From a virus: a stretch of 48,075 bases of DNA. The notes under the pieces are model-generated. The model made no database searches. It saw only the letters and a list, made by a program, of their open reading frames with translations, and had not been told where the DNA came from. Below are positions 8,856 through 37,951 of the stretch, piece after piece. The translations under genes were made by a program, and so were the position numbers. Numbering within the stretch: the stretch's first letter is position 1; every line of letters begins with the position of its first letter. The stretch spans positions 1-48,075 of IMG/VR virus record IMGVR_UViG_3300047508_000133, one strand, 5' to 3'.

Positions 8856-10265
8856 ATGAGCGCGACCGGGTGGTTGTCACGCATCGCGAAGCTGGTGCGC
8901 AAGGGCGAGGGCGACTTTCGCCCTGGCCCATACTACCTTCCGGTGACCGGCGGCTGGCTACCGGACGGCGCCGGCTGGAACTGGTGGCAGTGCGGCTACG
9001 ATCCGGCCGCGCTGTCCGCACAGACCGCGATGGTCGAGGGTTGCGTATCGGCGTACTCGCAGACGATCGCCATGCTGCCCGGCGATCATTGGCGGATCAA
9101 CGACAAGGGCGGCCGCGATCGCGTCCGCTCTTCGGCGCTTTCCCGTCTGCTGCGCTATCCGAACGATTATCAATCGATCAGCGACTTCATGCTGAACGCG
9201 GCGCGGTCGCTTTACCTGTACGGCAACACCTATGCGCTCGGGCTTCGCAACGATCGCTTCGAGATCGACGAGCTGCATTTGATGGATTCGATGAATTCCC
9301 ATCCGCGGCTGGCCAGCAATGGGGAGATTTTCTACCAGCTCTACGGCAACGACATCATTCAGCGCCGCCTTGGCCCCGACGCGCTGCTGGTTCCGCAGCG
9401 TGACGTTCTCCACATCAGGCTGCATACGGTGCGCCATCGCATGCCGACTCCGCTCGTCGGCGAATCACCGATCGTCGCCGCATATGGCGACATCGGCGTG
9501 AGCTCAGCGATAAGCCGTCAGCAATATTCGTACTACATGAACCAAGCCCGCCCGAGCGCTGTTCTCACGACCGACCTCACGCTCGATAAGGACCAGCTCC
9601 AGGCATTGCGTGACCGTTGGAACGAGCAGGCCAAGGGCCTGCACCAGGGCGGCACGCCGATCCTGACCGCGGGCCTCAAGGTTCAGCCATGGACGTCGGC
9701 CGGCAAGGATGCCGCCACGGCGGAAATCCTCAAGCTGTCGAATGAGAACATTGCGCTTGCATTCCGCATTCCGCTGCAGATCCTCGGCCTCGGCGGCTCG
9801 ACGTTCTCGTCGACCGAGCTGCTGATGCAGAGCTGGATCTCATCCGGTCTCGGCTTCGCGCTCAATCATATCGAGGAAGCGATCGGAAACCTGTTCCAGC
9901 TTACGGGCGTGCCGGACGAATATGTCGAGTTCGATACCGCCGAGCTTTTGCGTTCGGCGCAGAAGGATCGCATCGAGTCGCTGGCGCGCGGCGTCCAGGG
10001 CGGCATCTACGCGCCGAACGAAGCGCGCAACATCGAAGGGCTCGACAGCGTCGAATTCGGCGACGAGCCCCGTGTTCAGCAGCAGGTGGTCCCGCTCAGC
10101 CAAGTCGGGAAGATTCCAGCTGCGCCGGCGGCGCCGCCTCCTCCCGCCGCGCCGCCGGCTCCATCAGAACCTCCGCAAAAGAGCAACCGCGATGACATTG
10201 CACGAGAGGTCCGAACCCTGTTTGCCGGCGCCGACCGGGCCCGACGACGACGCCTTGCTTCTTGA
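8856..10265 (+). CDS. portal protein, HK97 family
   Basis: The 469-residue protein forms the 12-fold DNA entry channel at one head vertex. Family features visible include the early segment [21 protein letters not shown], the [26 protein letters not shown] helix region, and [15 protein letters not shown] with [20 protein letters not shown] in the stem/wing. The C-terminus ends in a Pro/Ala-rich stretch and a basic tail ([11 protein letters not shown]). The ATG at 8856 directly follows the upstream stop; a GTG at 8852 is an alternative in another frame. The 3' end overlaps the collagen-like gene by 74 bases. Confidence 0.93.
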
Positions 10266-11217
10266 CGCGTGGCGCGAAGCGCTCGCCGAGGCGCTCGACC
10301 TCGAGCGTGCGCAATGGCAACGCCATCGCGAGCTGGTCGAGGCGCAGAACGCGGCAACGATCCTGCAATTGCGCGCCGAGGCGGCCGAGTGGCGAGCGGG
10401 CGCTGATGCTCGGCTCCAAGCCGTGCTTCAGGAGGCGCTCGAAGAGGTCTTGGCGATCGCCGCCAAGATCAAGGACGGCGCCGACGGAGCGCCAGGGCCG
10501 GCCGGCGAGCGTGGCGAGGCCGGCGACCAGGGCGAGCGCGGCGAACCCGGCGCCATGGGCCCTGCGGGGCCCGCTGGTGCGTCCGGCGAAAAGGGCGACC
10601 AAGGGCCACCCGGCGCCGCAGGGCCTCCCGGTGAGGCCGGCAGCGCTGGCGAACAGGGCCCGGCGGGCATCCCGGGGCCCGCTGGGAAGGACGGCGCGCC
10701 GGGCACGATCGAGGCGGCATTACCGTACCGCGATGGCGAGGTGCATTACCGAGGCCAGGTCGTATTGCTCGGCGGCTCGACCTGGCAGGCGCGCGCCGAT
10801 ACCGCCCGTGCGCCACCGCACGAGGATTGGGCCTGCCTGGCGTCGGCTGGACGGGACGCGGCAACACCCGTCGTGCGCGGCACCTGGCGCGACGGCGATG
10901 CCTACGCGGCGCTCGATATCGTGGCGCTCAACGGCGGATCGTTCATTGCGCGCAAGGATGCCCCAGGCCCGTGTCCGGGCGAGGGCTGGCAGCTCATCGC
11001 CTCGGCCGGCAAGCCAGGCAAGCCCGGACCAAAGGGCGACCACGGAGCTCCTGGCGCGCGTGGCGAGCGTGGTCCCGCAGGCGATCCCGCGCCGGTCATC
11101 CTCGGCTGGCGCATCGATCGCGAGGCCTACACGGCGCAGCCGATCATGTCCGATAACAGCGAGGCGCCGCCGCTCGAGCTGCGCGCCCTCTTTGAGCAAT
11201 TTCACGAGGCGCGCTGA
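10192..11217 (+). CDS. collagen-like virion protein with duplicated sugar-binding-like module
   Basis: The 341-residue protein begins with ~90 residues of Ala/Glu/Leu-rich coiled coil. It continues with about 25 Gly-X-Y triplets (residues ~96-173). Two related ~45-residue modules follow: first [20 protein letters not shown]...[10 protein letters not shown], then [20 protein letters not shown]...[10 protein letters not shown]. These resemble chitin-binding CBM5/12-type modules. Nine more Gly-X-Y triplets (residues ~274-299) precede a short C-terminal region. A trimeric fibre is the expected structure. Being between portal and connector, it may be a head or neck fibre. The start overlaps the portal gene by 74 bases and has only a weak ribosome site, so the exact N-terminus is uncertain. 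Confidence 0.8.
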
Positions 11218-32597: not shown

Positions 32598-33527
32598 TCA
32601 ACCCTTGCCCAGCGTTTGCGATGGCAGCTCACTGAACAGGCTGTGGTACTGGTCGGCGAAACGGCCGAGGTGGAGGAAGCCGTGAGCACGGGCGACCTGC
32701 CGCACCGTTATGCTGGGACCAGCGCGCTTGAGCGCCACATGCACATCGCAGAGCCGCTTGTGGCGCAGGAACGCCATCGGCGCCATTCCCATCACCTCCT
32801 CGAAAATACGATACAGCGTCCGCCGGGTGACGCCGAAACGCTCGCACAATTCGGAACTATGGACCGGACGCCCGGCGGAGGTCAGGTAGCGGTCCATCTC
32901 GAGGATAAGCGGTTTCGGCGCGGGGGGACGGGAACCACGATACCGGGAGGCATGGCTGATCGGTGCGGTCAAAAGCTCAAAGATGTTGCGCTGGTGGAAC
33001 GCGAGCACGTCGTCCGAGAGCGTCATCCCGTGCTCGACGATCTCCGTCAGCAGCCATCGCAAATGCCGCGACGAGAAGGCGCGGTGGATCACCGAGGCGC
33101 GGCGACGCTCTAGATCATCATACGCACCGGGAGATGGAGCCAGAAAGGTCTGCAACGCCGCGGAGGGGATAAAGGTGGTCGCAAATCTGGTCTTGTCCTG
33201 TAATCTCGTAAACCGTTCCTCGCCGGGGGCCACGAAGGCGAGATCGCCGGGGGCGAACATTAGGCGCCCGTTGGCCAGACCATCGGTTCCGAACAGAGTC
33301 CCCAAGCCCCAGCGCGTATCACTCATCACCCCGGCCGTCCGAACCCCACGCGAGAACGAGCCGGTCGAAATGCTGACCATCGGATCGGATCGAAACGCGA
33401 TCTCAGTGATTTCGCCGGACATCCGGCCGGCGCCGAGCTGCACCACGTCGGTCTGCTTGTCCGGCGACAGGTCCGCCACAAGTGCTTCGAAATCATCAAA
33501 ATGCGTCCGCCTGATCGCAACTGGCAC
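32598..33527 (-). CDS. AraC-family transcription regulator
   Basis: The 309-residue protein has a C-terminal AraC-type double HTH (RPVHSSELCERFGVTRRTLYRIFEEVMGMAPMAFLRHKRL and SITVRQVARAHGFLHLGRFADQYHSLFSELPSQTL). A cupin-like N-terminal region comes before it, resembling the AraC-binding-like domain. A GTG at 33527 with a gggggaag ribosome site is chosen. The longer frame starting at 33647 would begin inside the promoter at 33643-33671. AraC regulators are unusual in phages, so it may be cargo acting on host genes in the lysogen. Sensor ligand unknown. Confidence 0.8.
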   Translation of the reverse strand: MPVAIRRTHFDDFEALVADLSPDKQTDVVQLGAGRMSGEITEIAFRSDPMVSISTGSFSRGVRTAGVMSDTRWGLGTLFGTDGLANGRLMFAPGDLAFVAPGEERFTRLQDKTRFATTFIPSAALQTFLAPSPGAYDDLERRRASVIHRAFSSRHLRWLLTEIVEHGMTLSDDVLAFHQRNIFELLTAPISHASRYRGSRPPAPKPLILEMDRYLTSAGRPVHSSELCERFGVTRRTLYRIFEEVMGMAPMAFLRHKRLCDVHVALKRAGPSITVRQVARAHGFLHLGRFADQYHSLFSELPSQTLGKG

Positions 33528-33609
33528 ACGACTTCCCCCACCAACACTAACCTGCCCAGATTGGGCCCTCAGCTTCCACCGGATCGCCCATTGACGCCAA
33601 AAAAAATCG

Positions 33610-33639
33610 TTGCCGGATAGCGTGCATATCTTATATATT
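33610..33639 (+). promoter_or_regulatory. possible divergent promoter for the ribbon-helix-helix gene
   Basis: TTGCCG at 33610-33615 and TATATT at 33634-33639 are 18 bases apart, pointing to the gene at 33690. It faces the promoter of the AraC-like gene, so the two promoters overlap and could be controlled together. The -35 match is weak. Confidence 0.4.
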
Positions 33640-33642
33640 TCA

Positions 33643-33671
33643 TGCATACGTTTTCATGCATATCGTGTCAA
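33643..33671 (-). promoter_or_regulatory. promoter of the AraC-like gene, with TGCATA repeats
   Basis: Reading the - strand, a perfect TTGACA (33671-33666) is followed after 17 bases by TATGCA (33648-33643). TGCATA hexamers at 33623, 33643 and 33657 overlap or flank the -10 and spacer. They may bind a regulator. Part of this region (GCATACGTTTTC) resembles the 32498 iterons (ATATGCGTTTTG), so one protein could act at both places. Confidence 0.65.
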
Positions 33672-33913: not shown

Positions 33914-34133
33914 ATTTGGACACCATTTGGACACTGGCCGCCTTTGGCATTGATATTGTTAGCGTTTTCGGCCTATTCATGTGCCCTACAACAGTGTGAT
34001 TTTGCATTTGGTGTCATATCATGTCGTTGTTGATGGCTGCAAGAAACCCTTGCGGCACAAGCGGAAGTGTCTATGGTGGTCCGAAGGCGTCCAGAGCCGT
34101 TGAAATCCGATATTTAGGACACAGCTTAGACAC
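33914..34133 (+). other. candidate attP with paired arm-type repeats
   Basis: A pair of ATTTGGACAC units (33914-33923 and 33925-33934) and a second, related pair (TTTAGGACAC at 34113-34122 and GCTTAGACAC at 34124-34133) share the consensus TT-x-GGACAC. Units in each pair are spaced by exactly 11 bases. They flank a 178-base stretch without genes that contains a short inverted repeat (GCAAG 34039-34043, CTTGC 34049-34053), which could be the strand-exchange core. Integrase is encoded 200 bases downstream. This layout is that of lambda-type attP sites; the call is an inference. Confidence 0.5.
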
Positions 34134-34147
34134 AAGGGGAAATTCCG

Positions 34148-34330
34148 ATGGTTGAGTTTTCTGAGTTGGATATTCGCGAGAAGCTGGCGCATATCGATCA
34201 AATGCTGGCGGACCACGACCGCAAACGTCAAGAAATCAGAATGGCGCCATGGGCCATGATGCTTTCCGGCATGACGGCTGGCGCGGCCTTCTTTGCTGCT
34301 GGTGTCGCCTTCATCAAGGTTTTGAGCTAG
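34148..34330 (+). CDS. small membrane protein next to the integrase
   Basis: The 60-residue protein has a charged helix (LDIREKLAHIDQMLADHDRKRQEIRM) and one C-terminal membrane span (APWAMMLSGMTAGAAFFAAGVAFIKVL). A plausible ribosome site (aagggg) lies upstream. Function unknown; small membrane proteins of this layout sit beside integrase genes in several phages. Confidence 0.6.
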   Translation: MVEFSELDIREKLAHIDQMLADHDRKRQEIRMAPWAMMLSGMTAGAAFFAAGVAFIKVLS

Positions 34331-34332
34331 CC

Positions 34333-35589
34333 ATGCCCAAGCCCCGCGCCGCCAAGCTCGAAAGCGCCACCGCCCGACTCAAACTGCCTGTCGCCGGCAA
34401 GCCGGTCTGGGTCTCCCTGGCGCCCGGCATCTCGCTCGGCTATCGCCGCAACGCCGGCGCCGGCACGTGGAGCGTCCGCAGCCAGGGCCCCGGCACCGGC
34501 TGGATCAAGCGCATCGGTCTCGCCGACGATCTTGAGCCCGCCGCCCCACCGGTGGTGCTGACCTTCTGGCAAGCCCAGGAACAAGCCCGCTTGCTGGCGC
34601 GCCGGCAGTCGGGCGCTCCGGTCGACGAAAGCCGGCCGGTCACCGTGGCCGAGGCGCTCAATCGCTACGAGACCTATCTGAAAGCCCGCGGCGGCCGGCC
34701 CTACAATGCGCAGCAGCCTCGCGCGCTGTTGCCGGCGGCTATGCTCGGCAAGCCGGTTGCCCTGATTTCCCGCGGCGAGCTGGAACGCTGGCGCGATGGC
34801 CTCGTGGGGGACCGGCAAGCCGCGACCGTCAACCGGCTCATGAACGGCCTCATGGCGTCGATCGCGCTAGCCGCCAAGAGCGACAGCCGCCTGCGGCAGC
34901 ACCTGCCCGAGATCAAGATCGGGCCGCTACCGTCGGCGTCACGGGCCCGCAACGTCGTCCTAACCGACGATCAGGTGCGTGCGGTCATCGCCGCGGCCTA
35001 TGAGCGCGATCCGCAGCTTGGGCTGTTCGTCGATGTGCTGGCCGCGACCGGGTCGAGGCCGTGCCAAGTCGTGCGCCTCACCATCGCGGACCTGAAGGAG
35101 ATCCCGCCGCGCCTGATGATGCCCCGGTCCGCCAAGGGCGGCTCGCGTGATCGTCTTGCCCGATTGGCCGAGCACGTCGCCGTGCCCATCACCGCCGCGC
35201 TGGCGAGGCGCCTGAGGGCCGCGGCCGAGGGCCGGCCTACCGATGCCCCGCTGCTCATACGTCGCACCGGCGAGCCCTGGGGGCACGATCCGAACGTGGT
35301 CTATCGCCGAGCGGTCCGCGAGGTCATTGCGTCGGTCGGCCTCGATCCCGATCGGGTGACGCTCTACGCCTTGAGGCACAGCGCCGTCACGCGGCAGTTG
35401 CTCGCCGGCACGCCGATCCGCGTCGTCGCCGCGTTGTGCGACACCTCGGTCACAATGATCGAAAAGCACTATGCCAAGGACATCGCCTCGCACAGCGATG
35501 AGATTTTCCGCCGCGGCCTGCTGCAGGACCCTCCGGGGGAGGCGAGCGCCGACAACGTCATCAGCCTGAAGGTGAAGGGGACGGCATGA
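34333..35589 (+). CDS. int: tyrosine recombinase (integrase)
   Basis: The 418-residue protein has an N-terminal arm-type domain (~11-95), a core-binding domain (~103-185) and a catalytic domain (~205-400). Arg242 (ATGSRPCQ), the Y345-A-L-R348-H349 box (Tyr replacing the usual first His) and the nucleophile Tyr380 (MIEKHYAKD) are visible; YALRHS boxes are common in such integrases. It integrates and excises the phage genome. The N-terminal domain (residues 11-85) matches residues 107-181 of the following gene product at 60 of 75 positions by eye. The ATG at 34333 directly follows the small membrane gene. Confidence 0.92.
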   Translation: MPKPRAAKLESATARLKLPVAGKPVWVSLAPGISLGYRRNAGAGTWSVRSQGPGTGWIKRIGLADDLEPAAPPVVLTFWQAQEQARLLARRQSGAPVDESRPVTVAEALNRYETYLKARGGRPYNAQQPRALLPAAMLGKPVALISRGELERWRDGLVGDRQAATVNRLMNGLMASIALAAKSDSRLRQHLPEIKIGPLPSASRARNVVLTDDQVRAVIAAAYERDPQLGLFVDVLAATGSRPCQVVRLTIADLKEIPPRLMMPRSAKGGSRDRLARLAEHVAVPITAALARRLRAAAEGRPTDAPLLIRRTGEPWGHDPNVVYRRAVREVIASVGLDPDRVTLYALRHSAVTRQLLAGTPIRVVAALCDTSVTMIEKHYAKDIASHSDEIFRRGLLQDPPGEASADNVISLKVKGTA

Positions 35590-35641
35590 CCCCCGAGATC
35601 ACTCAAGACCGCCGGCAGCGATGCTGTCGCGAGGCGGCGGC

Positions 35642-36283
35642 ATGACAAAGCCCAAGAAGCCAAAAAACCAAAAGTTGCCGCACCTCGCGATGACGGTCGA
35701 TGAATTCTGCACGGCGTTCAGAATATCAAAGCCGTTTTTCTACAAGCTGCGCAGCCAGGGCTTAGGTCCGCGCGAAATGAAACTCGGCGCTCGGACGTTG
35801 ATTTCGATGGCGGCGGCGGACGAATGGCGCAAGATCGTCGAGGAGCCGACCGCCGAGCCTGGGGGAGAGGCCGAGCTTGGGAAAGCGAGCACGGCTGTTC
35901 GAGCGCGTCCAAAACTACCGAAGCCGAGGCAGCCGAGGCAGCCGCCGCCAAGCCTCCAAAGCGCCACCGCACGATTGCGCCTGCCTGTCGCCGGAAAGCC
36001 GATCTGGGTGCGGCTCGCGCCCGGCATCTCGCTCGGCTATCGCCGCAACGCGCGCTTCGGCACGTGGAGCGTCCGCGTCCGCGGCAATGGTGCGGAGTGG
36101 ATCAAGCGCATTGCCCTCGCCGACGATCTTGAGGCCGCCGCCCCACCGGCCGTGCTGACCTATTGGCAGGCCTGGGAGCAAGCCCTCAAGCTGGCTGGCG
36201 CACCGGTCGAGGATCGCCGGACGAACGCCCACCGGCAAAGAGGGAGGCTGATCGCGCGGCCCAGCGAGGGGGAGCAACAATGA
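35642..36283 (+). CDS. excisionase-like HTH fused to a second integrase arm domain
   Basis: The 213-residue protein is a mosaic. Residues 14-66 form a MerR/excisionase-like winged HTH (HLAMTVDEFCTAFRISKPFFYKLRSQGLG...) that matches the protein at 37721-37951 at 40 of 49 aligned positions. Residues 67-105 are a Pro/Lys/Arg-rich linker. Residues 107-189 duplicate the N-terminal domain of the integrase just upstream (34363-34623 in DNA). It lacks core-binding and catalytic domains. A likely role is recombination directionality: binding attP with both modules and competing with or guiding integrase. The HTH could also make it a regulator of int. Confidence 0.8.
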   Translation: MTKPKKPKNQKLPHLAMTVDEFCTAFRISKPFFYKLRSQGLGPREMKLGARTLISMAAADEWRKIVEEPTAEPGGEAELGKASTAVRARPKLPKPRQPRQPPPSLQSATARLRLPVAGKPIWVRLAPGISLGYRRNARFGTWSVRVRGNGAEWIKRIALADDLEAAAPPAVLTYWQAWEQALKLAGAPVEDRRTNAHRQRGRLIARPSEGEQQ

Positions 36284-36393
36284 ATGTGCTCGCCGACATC
36301 AAGTCGACGCTGCGCTTGCAAAGCTGGGTGTTGACGTTCAATACCGCGATGATCGTGGCAATCGTCGGCAAGCTGTTCCTTGGCGGACATTGA
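36280..36393 (+). CDS. tiny membrane protein
   Basis: This 37-residue product (MNVLADIKSTLRLQSWVLTFNTAMIVAIVGKLFLGGH) has one membrane span. It is coupled to the mosaic gene by an ATGA overlap and has a strong ribosome site (gagggggag). It recalls the small membrane protein at 34148, at the other side of the integrase. Function unknown. Confidence 0.6.
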   Translation: MNVLADIKSTLRLQSWVLTFNTAMIVAIVGKLFLGGH

Positions 36394-36775: not shown

Positions 36776-37285
36776 TCAAATCCCCACGTACTCGCGCATC
36801 ACTCTGACCCACTCGGCCGGCGTCGCGTCGTCCGGCATCCCGTCTTTCGTCGCTTCGAGAGACGCCGCCATCTTGCGTATTCCATGCAGCACCGTGGTGT
36901 GATCCCGGCCGCCGAAGCGCCGCCCGATTTCCGGCAAGCTGCGCGAGGTCAGATGCTTGCACAAGGCGAACGCGATATGGCGCGGGCGCACGACGTCCAG
37001 GCTGCGGCGCTCCGCCACCAGCTCGTTTTTTCTCAAGTTGAATTCATCGCAAACCGCCCACAAAATCTCACCGATGGACGGTTCACGAGGTTCACTTCGA
37101 ACCAGTGGCGGCGGGGGTGCAGCAGGCTTGGCAGCTGGCGGGGGCGCAGGGGGCAGCTCGGGCGGCCGGATCGTTTCAGGCGGCGGTATGAACTGCCGCC
37201 AAAATGCCGAGTGGATCGATCGATACCTCGCCAGCATTTCGTCCGTGTTCGAATAATCCGGCACGCGTGCGGGTGCGACCTTCAT
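36776..37285 (-). CDS. stand-alone DnaA domain IV (DnaA box-binding) protein
   Basis: The 169-residue protein has an N-terminal region of unknown type, a Pro-rich linker (~35-62) and a C-terminal domain typical of DnaA domain IV: VVRPRHIAFALCKHLTSRSLPEIGRRF followed by the signature GGRDHTTVLHGIRKM. The AAA+ ATPase part is missing. It can probably bind DnaA boxes, either to recruit replication to phage DNA or to interfere with host initiation. A strong ggagg ribosome site marks the ATG. It sits in the RecT operon, which links it to replication/recombination. Confidence 0.85.
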   Translation of the reverse strand: MKVAPARVPDYSNTDEMLARYRSIHSAFWRQFIPPPETIRPPELPPAPPPAAKPAAPPPPLVRSEPREPSIGEILWAVCDEFNLRKNELVAERRSLDVVRPRHIAFALCKHLTSRSLPEIGRRFGGRDHTTVLHGIRKMAASLEATKDGMPDDATPAEWVRVMREYVGI

Positions 37286-37306: not shown

Positions 37307-37525
37307 TCACTGCAGCAGATCTTCCCTCGTGATCTCTGCCTCTATCTTGACGACCCGGTCCAAAAGACGGGTGATCGCGGCCACACGGTCGTGCTGGCGC
37401 TTGGCCCACCACCAGATCATGGTCGCCAGCATTCCCTCGCGGCCGTCATCATCGAGTGGCGCGAGGATGTCGCGCATAGTGTCGAGGTCGCGATACACCT
37501 TCGCCTTCGATGCTTCTCTTTTCAT
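37307..37525 (-). CDS. small helical protein of unknown function
   Basis: The 72-residue product has a charged, helical make-up (KVYRDLDTMRDILAPLDDDGREGMLATMIWWWAKRQHDRVAAI...). An ATGA overlap couples it to the HTH gene upstream. No known family. Confidence 0.6.
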   Translation of the reverse strand: MKREASKAKVYRDLDTMRDILAPLDDDGREGMLATMIWWWAKRQHDRVAAITRLLDRVVKIEAEITREDLLQ

Positions 37526-37740
37526 GACGCATCCCGTTTTGTGCCTTCGGCGATCATCAAGGCGTCGCGGACACGCATGCCGAGGCGCCCGGGGCTGATG
37601 CGGATGATCTTGTCCGCGTGGACCCTTTGCATGGTTCGCGAGCTGACGCCGGCCAGCTCGGCCGCCTGTCGAAGATTGATGATTTTCATGAGCTGCACCG
37701 CCGTCGGAAGCGGCTCATTCTCAAGACGCTTTTTGCTCAT
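37522..37740 (-). CDS. small HTH protein
   Basis: The 72-residue protein has a MerR/excisionase-type HTH (MKIINLRQAAELAGVSSRTMQRVHADKIIRISPGRLGMRVRDALMI). The ATG at 37740 has a well spaced aggagag site; an ATG two codons upstream is less well placed. It overlaps the end of the neighbouring HTH gene by 20 bases. Two small HTH genes in a row suggest control of the recombination operon or of excision. Confidence 0.65.
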   Translation of the reverse strand: MSKKRLENEPLPTAVQLMKIINLRQAAELAGVSSRTMQRVHADKIIRISPGRLGMRVRDALMIAEGTKRDAS

Positions 37741-37951
37741 GTTCATCTCTCCTGTCCTCGCGGGCGGCGATCCATTCGTTTGCCGCCGCCATCGAGATTA
37801 TTGTCCGAGCACCCAGTTTAATCTCGCGAGGTCCGAGCCCTTGGTTGCGTAGACTGTAATAAAACCCCTTTGAGATTCGAAACGCCTCGCAAAATTCCTC
37901 GACGGTCATTGCAAGGTGCGGCGTGCTGGGTCTGGGCTTTCTGTTCGGCAT
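37721..37951 (-). CDS. excisionase-like small HTH protein
   Basis: The 76-residue protein carries a single MerR/excisionase-like HTH (HLAMTVEEFCEAFRISKGFYYSLRNQGLG...MAAANEW), followed by a charged tail. It is a close paralogue of the N-terminal part of the mosaic protein at 35642 (40 of 49 positions identical by eye). It starts just after the RecT stop codon (TAAAATG). It could be the true excisionase or a regulator of the switch. Confidence 0.72.
   Translation of the reverse strand: MPNRKPRPSTPHLAMTVEEFCEAFRISKGFYYSLRNQGLGPREIKLGARTIISMAAANEWIAAREDRRDEHEQKAS

Follow-up and report, generated by a model that had tools for sequence, protein, structure and literature searches.

A predicted fusion of an excisionase-type winged HTH and an integrase arm-type domain, encoded behind the integrase of a temperate phage

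The window, that is the whole stretch of DNA analysed here, is 48,075 bases long and is a virus record of IMG/VR, probably a metagenome assembly. It has genes for terminase, portal, major head, tape-measure and endolysin as well as for RecT, a YqaJ nuclease and an integrase, and since structural, RecT/YqaJ and integrase genes are all present, we take it to be a temperate tailed phage. Integrases related to that of the window occur in Hyphomicrobiales, e.g. Bradyrhizobium, Methylobacterium and Lichenibacterium. The genes around the integrase, among them the hybrid gene that is the subject of this study, are the following:

34148 to 34330, plus strand: 60-codon ORF for a small membrane-type protein, the first gene of the presumed integrase operon, its start about 15 bp past the right arm-type pair described further on.
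34333 to 35589, plus strand: tyrosine integrase, with the arm domain at residues ~9-90 (Pfam Phage_integrase just above its cut-off; PHROG 1; structural model).
35586 to 35645, plus strand: 19-codon ORF, its start overlapping the integrase stop and its stop the hybrid start (ATGA in each case).
35642 to 36283, plus strand: the hybrid gene, with an HTH at residues ~14-69, a flexible linker at ~70-105, an arm-type domain at ~106-185 and a short C-terminal tail.
35681 to 35848, plus strand: winged HTH of the hybrid, of excisionase type (Pfam HTH_17 at E 3e-4, short of the cut-off; structural matches 8c3t, 8dgl and 4j2n).
35957 to 36196, plus strand: arm-type domain of the hybrid, as in integrases (BLASTP match to the N-terminus of the integrase at 1e-41; structural matches 3jtz, 3rmp and 3ju0).
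36280 to 36393, plus strand: 37-codon ORF, encoding a hydrophobic mini-protein and overlapping the hybrid stop with its start (ATGA).
37721 to 37951, minus strand: free HTH protein, the presumed excisionase or recombination directionality factor (RDF), next to the RecT gene.

The hybrid ORF encodes 213 residues before its stop and has no frameshift or internal stop. The original prediction, that its two ends each resemble another protein of the window, holds in alignment. Residues 13-62 are identical to the free HTH protein at 41 of 50 positions (E 1e-30; 40 of 49 in the earlier count), and residues 92-193 match integrase residues 1-101 with 72 of 106 identical (E 1e-41; earlier 60 of 75, over a shorter stretch). 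The DNA itself matches at 81% across 264 bp and at 77% across 151 bp. The shared part was also said to stop before the core-binding domain of the integrase, which is borne out, as the homology fades past about integrase residue 101 and the next helix in the model runs from 105. The hybrid ends past its arm domain, has neither a core-binding nor a catalytic domain and is not classed as a tyrosine recombinase; a loose search 3' of the gene found no remnant of an integrase catalytic domain, and none of the profile databases searched gave the hybrid a name. Its arm part has zero stops and zero indels and keeps every residue that is invariant across the compared arm domains, the hybrid itself being one of the rows. 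Some positions conserved in the other arms are altered, e.g. G to R and R to L. The GC pattern of coding DNA is retained in the HTH and arm parts, with the weakest codon-position signal in the latter half of the linker.

AlphaFold2, given an alignment made from window and locus sequences, modelled the hybrid as two domains, each with a pLDDT of about 90 or higher, separated by a disordered linker. When the model was compared with the PDB by Foldseek, the RdfS excisionase took ranks 1 and 2 and the attP arm-domain structure of a P4-like integrase rank 3, at weak E-values (best 0.007). The best five in VIA-align were 3jtz (Z 8.6), 8c3t (8.2), 3rmp (8.1), 3ju0 (7.7) and 8dgl (6.8); a single match at Z near 8 is borderline, and all five are of the two expected kinds, with most of each domain covered. 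The arm-type domain of the HPI integrase, 3jtz, aligns to hybrid residues 104-188, and together with 3rmp and the HAI7 arm domain 3ju0 it fills ranks 1, 3 and 4. In the model this half consists of strands at 121-126, 129-135, 140-148 and 151-160 and a helix at 174-184, which is the arm-domain fold. That fold is a three- to four-stranded sheet followed by a C-terminal helix.

The HTH half aligns to excisionases over residues ~4-69, with 8c3t (the GIsul2 excisionase, residues 14-69) at Z 8.2, 8dgl_A at 6.8 and 4j2n_A at 6.1. MerR-family regulators score almost as well, so an excisionase role is not proven by the fold alone. The proposal that this half is excisionase-like is sustained by the fold, and free copies of the same HTH adjoin integrases of this family. 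By its modelled structure the hybrid is thus an excisionase-type winged HTH combined with an integrase arm-type domain.

The ATGA overlaps that join the integrase gene, the 19-codon ORF, the hybrid and the 37-codon ORF suggest, at the level of sequence, that their translation is coupled. The hybrid begins 52 bp after the integrase gene, and no RNA structure exceeding that of shuffled sequences was found at this junction. In the genomes, 21 of 59 arm-integrase hits have a free HTH homologue no more than 8 kb away, and in 18 of these 21 it is on the integrase strand, downstream of the arm start by 1.2-3.1 kb. The hybrid occupies the slot that is typical of free HTH genes in related loci, right behind the integrase gene and on the same strand. 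In the window itself, and in the related records L004 and L009, the HTH gene is on the strand opposite to the integrase.

Several other features of the region were observed. A second small HTH-like ORF (37522-37746, minus strand) overlaps the end of the free HTH gene, and L004 has one too. The protein encoded at 36776-37285 (minus strand) has the C-terminal DNA-binding domain of DnaA (Pfam Bac_DnaA_C) and lacks the ATPase part, and a gene for an AraC-type regulator (Pfam HTH_18; 32598-33647, minus strand), possibly cargo, adjoins the attP region. The integrase model aligns over its length with lambda Int (1z1b/1z1g). Around its residues 368-372 (ALCDTS) the window has CDTS, L004 SDTS and most relatives HDTS; this site may equal the usual catalytic His/Trp position of tyrosine recombinases. 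L004 also has GC-rich low-complexity repeats between small genes at 9000-10700, with RRGxARxG readable in several frames. In another related record, L018, a second, partial copy of the integrase C-terminal part (1635-1937) stands directly behind the complete integrase, which suggests tandem integrase duplication and decay in this integrase family.

Upstream of integrases of the window family we found hexamers, RGACAY, in tandem at a spacing of one helical turn. In the window they frame a conserved block:

33918 to 33934, plus strand: left candidate arm-type pair, GGACAC-N5-GGACAC.
34041 to 34076, plus strand: candidate attP core region, a conserved block common to the window and L004, AGAAACCCTTGCGGCACAAGCGGAAGTGTCTATG.
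34117 to 34133, plus strand: right candidate arm-type pair, GGACAC-N5-AGACAC.

Pairs of the GGACAC-N5-GGACAC type number 27 in 26.5 kb upstream of integrases as compared to 0 in 295 kb elsewhere, and 4 as compared to 0 in a second set of loci, counts to be read knowing that some loci in both sets have no pair and that several records of the first set are near-duplicates of each other. By chance 0.17 pairs would be expected per 48 kb, both strands included. The upstream pairs are always on the integrase strand (window, L004, L006, L009-L013, L017-L020, L023, L031 and L052-L054). The distance between the left and right pairs is 199 bp in the window and in L009-L013 and 209 bp in L004, and in many other loci a pair is found just ahead of the integrase start codon. 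Because of their position and enrichment we take the pairs as likely arm-type sites. The possibility that the shared domain is something other than an arm-binding domain is countered by the fold matches and by these candidate sites, which are placed where arm sites were expected; the assignment of the shared integrase half as an arm-type binding domain (3jtz, 3rmp, 3ju0) is therefore retained.

The block between the pairs is the best-conserved part of the region between the window and L004. A search for attB with this candidate core gave matches in 4 of 297 genomes, with 1-2 mismatches; these are probably due to chance, with no tRNA and no arm pairs alongside. A sigma-70-like promoter match at 33928-33957 overlaps the left arm pair, but it is weak and in L009 the spacing to GATATT is wider by about 10 bp, and we do not rely on it. 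Excisionase binding sites were expected but were not located.

The reading that we prefer, with a probability of roughly 0.4, is that the hybrid is a DNA-binding modulator, a co-expressed brake on integrase expression and on recombination, whose binding, repression and direction of action we infer. It would be a two-headed DNA binder, with a winged HTH, a flexible linker and the arm domain of a sister integrase, and it would occupy the GGACAC arm pairs, and perhaps nearby excisionase sites, at attP, attL and attR. It should be made along with Int, because its gene is sited in the integrase operon with ATGA overlaps. Bound to the right pair it should dampen integrase expression, since this pair just precedes the first start codon of the operon. 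A bound arm domain that is unable to bridge to the core site would also interfere with Int complexes. On these two predicted effects we favour a brake, which would act, most simply, to stabilise the prophage after integration. This reading is supported by the identification of the two halves by sequence and, independently, by fold, and further by the enrichment of the candidate arm sites, the intact ORF with its invariant arm residues and coding GC pattern, and the precedents given below. Against it stand the single known copy, the absence of the hybrid from the closest relative, L004, the altered residues at conserved arm positions and the excisionase sites that were not located. The wider claim, that the hybrid represents a functional class of regulator in which an excisionase joined to an arm domain reads both kinds of attP site and sets direction or integrase expression, is put forward tentatively, at somewhat less than even odds.

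Known systems show parts of such a logic. In KplE1 both Int and the RDF repress the integrase gene, since att overlaps its promoter (PMC2951348). IntS and TorI of this element resemble the system predicted for the window in that arm and RDF sites overlap the integrase promoter region and that the integrase and RDF genes are transcribed apart (PMC2951348), but there the regulators are a full Int and a free RDF, with no hybrid. IntS of ICEMlSymR7A is its own repressor, and RdfS binds 40 bp of attP adjoining an arm site, upstream of intS (PMC11963761). RdfS (PDB 8DGL), from a rhizobial element, shares the winged-HTH excisionase fold and is the top Foldseek match of the HTH half; unlike the hybrid it is an HTH alone, without an arm-type domain, and its gene lies away from intS. 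The P4-like arm domains (3JTZ, 3RMP, 3JU0) share their fold with the C-terminal half (71 residues, Z 7.7-8.6), but they sit within an integrase, whereas the arm domain of the hybrid is detached and joined to an HTH.

The main non-functional rival to a brake is an unselected fusion, a by-product of recombination between relatives that has been kept by chance and has not yet decayed, and the history of the two halves bears on it. For the arm domain the nucleotide identities are 81.1% between hybrid and window integrase, 84.8% between hybrid and L004 integrase and 85.2% between the two integrases; for the HTH they are 75.0% between hybrid and free HTH, 73.1% between hybrid and L004 and 74.4% between the free HTH and L004. 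In the trees the hybrid arm falls in a clade with the window and L004 integrases (98/90), and the hybrid HTH groups with, yet outside, the HTH pair of the window and L004 (93/90). A recent duplication of either half within the genome is ruled out by the equal distances to L004 and by the trees. It had been proposed that the halves were duplicated from the window genes; the homology is real, but in alignment the halves, nearly as far from the window genes as from those of L004, are not recent self-copies. From the identities and trees, both come from one small phage clade and split at about the time when L004 and the window phage diverged. The hybrid gene is missing from two near relatives, L005 and L004 (the integrase of L004 being 82% identical to that of the window), and either it was lost in these two or it was acquired from a third member of the clade.

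A chance by-product would fit the single occurrence, the 1-nt offset of the linker beside the arm relative to the integrase 5' end, the weak codon-position GC pattern in the second half of the linker, and the further broken integrase copies in the family (L018, L023). It is disfavoured by the 213 intact codons with all invariant arm residues retained, by two domains that fold confidently, by the ATGA overlaps at both ends of the ORF and by a divergence from the parents that is not recent, and we regard it as less likely than a brake. Nonsynonymous to synonymous changes private to the hybrid are 14:8 in the arm and 9:7 in the HTH, in each case comparable to the two functional copies (12:9 and 7:5 in the working integrases). 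Such ratios support, but do not prove, selection after the fusion, because some of the changes may predate it. We found no second hybrid in the phages and plasmids searched, nor in viral contigs (direct, arm-profile and HTH-profile scans), nor in 18 related records, 397 genomes of the order and 392 of the family; these scans are samples from which records very close to the window may be absent, and those of viral and genome contigs use strict peptide patterns that may miss distant hybrids. A gene confined to this sequence and in decay would have spoken against the control idea; it is unique to this record, but signs of decay are absent.

The main functional rival is an excision helper, a modified directionality factor whose HTH would sit on excisionase sites while its arm would occupy a weak arm site next to them in advance, letting excision complexes assemble when Int is scarce. 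This would be a covalent version of the lambda contact between Xis and the N-terminal domain of Int. There, Xis bound at X1 points its C-terminus towards the N-domain of Int bound at P2 and promotes the binding of that domain (PMC4880445). The two domains cooperate at X1-P2 (PDB 5J0N; PMC4880445), but they belong to separate proteins, whereas in the window they are covalently joined. The domain order of the hybrid is as in lambda (PMC4880445), and the free HTH of related loci is, like the hybrid, usually right behind the integrase gene on the same strand. However, lambda excision needs a bridge from P2 to a core site, which an arm domain that has no core-binding domain cannot form, the phage already has a separate HTH gene, and co-expression with the integrase rather than with the opposite-strand genes points to a role on the lysogeny side. 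We regard a helper as improbable. An assembly chimera of two related phages would be in keeping with a probably metagenome-assembled IMG/VR record and with a 35-nt exact run, shared by hybrid and integrase, that could mislead a short-k assembler, but it is very improbable, as near-identity to one parent would be expected, whereas identity to every known parent is 81-85% in the arm and 73-75% in the HTH at the nucleotide level, the frame and both ATGA junctions are intact, and the shared run lies inside the arm domain, away from the domain junction.

The statement that no RDF of this make-up has been described stands for the open literature searched, with subscription journals mostly outside it. 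Its parts are known, as is the regulatory logic; no description was found of an excisionase domain covalently joined to an integrase arm domain, and there is one example of it.

The direction of phage integration is set by how the Int arm domains and the excisionase share the attP arms. In the hybrid, the two-protein Int-Xis contact of lambda appears to have been fused by nature. With the GGACAC pairs there is a first predicted arm-site code for one family of phage integrases from alphaproteobacteria, the arm domain of which lacks a Pfam model. If the hybrid binds as predicted, it would be a tool to probe arm occupancy in integration as compared to excision, and it would offer a design idea for a one-protein integrase brake.
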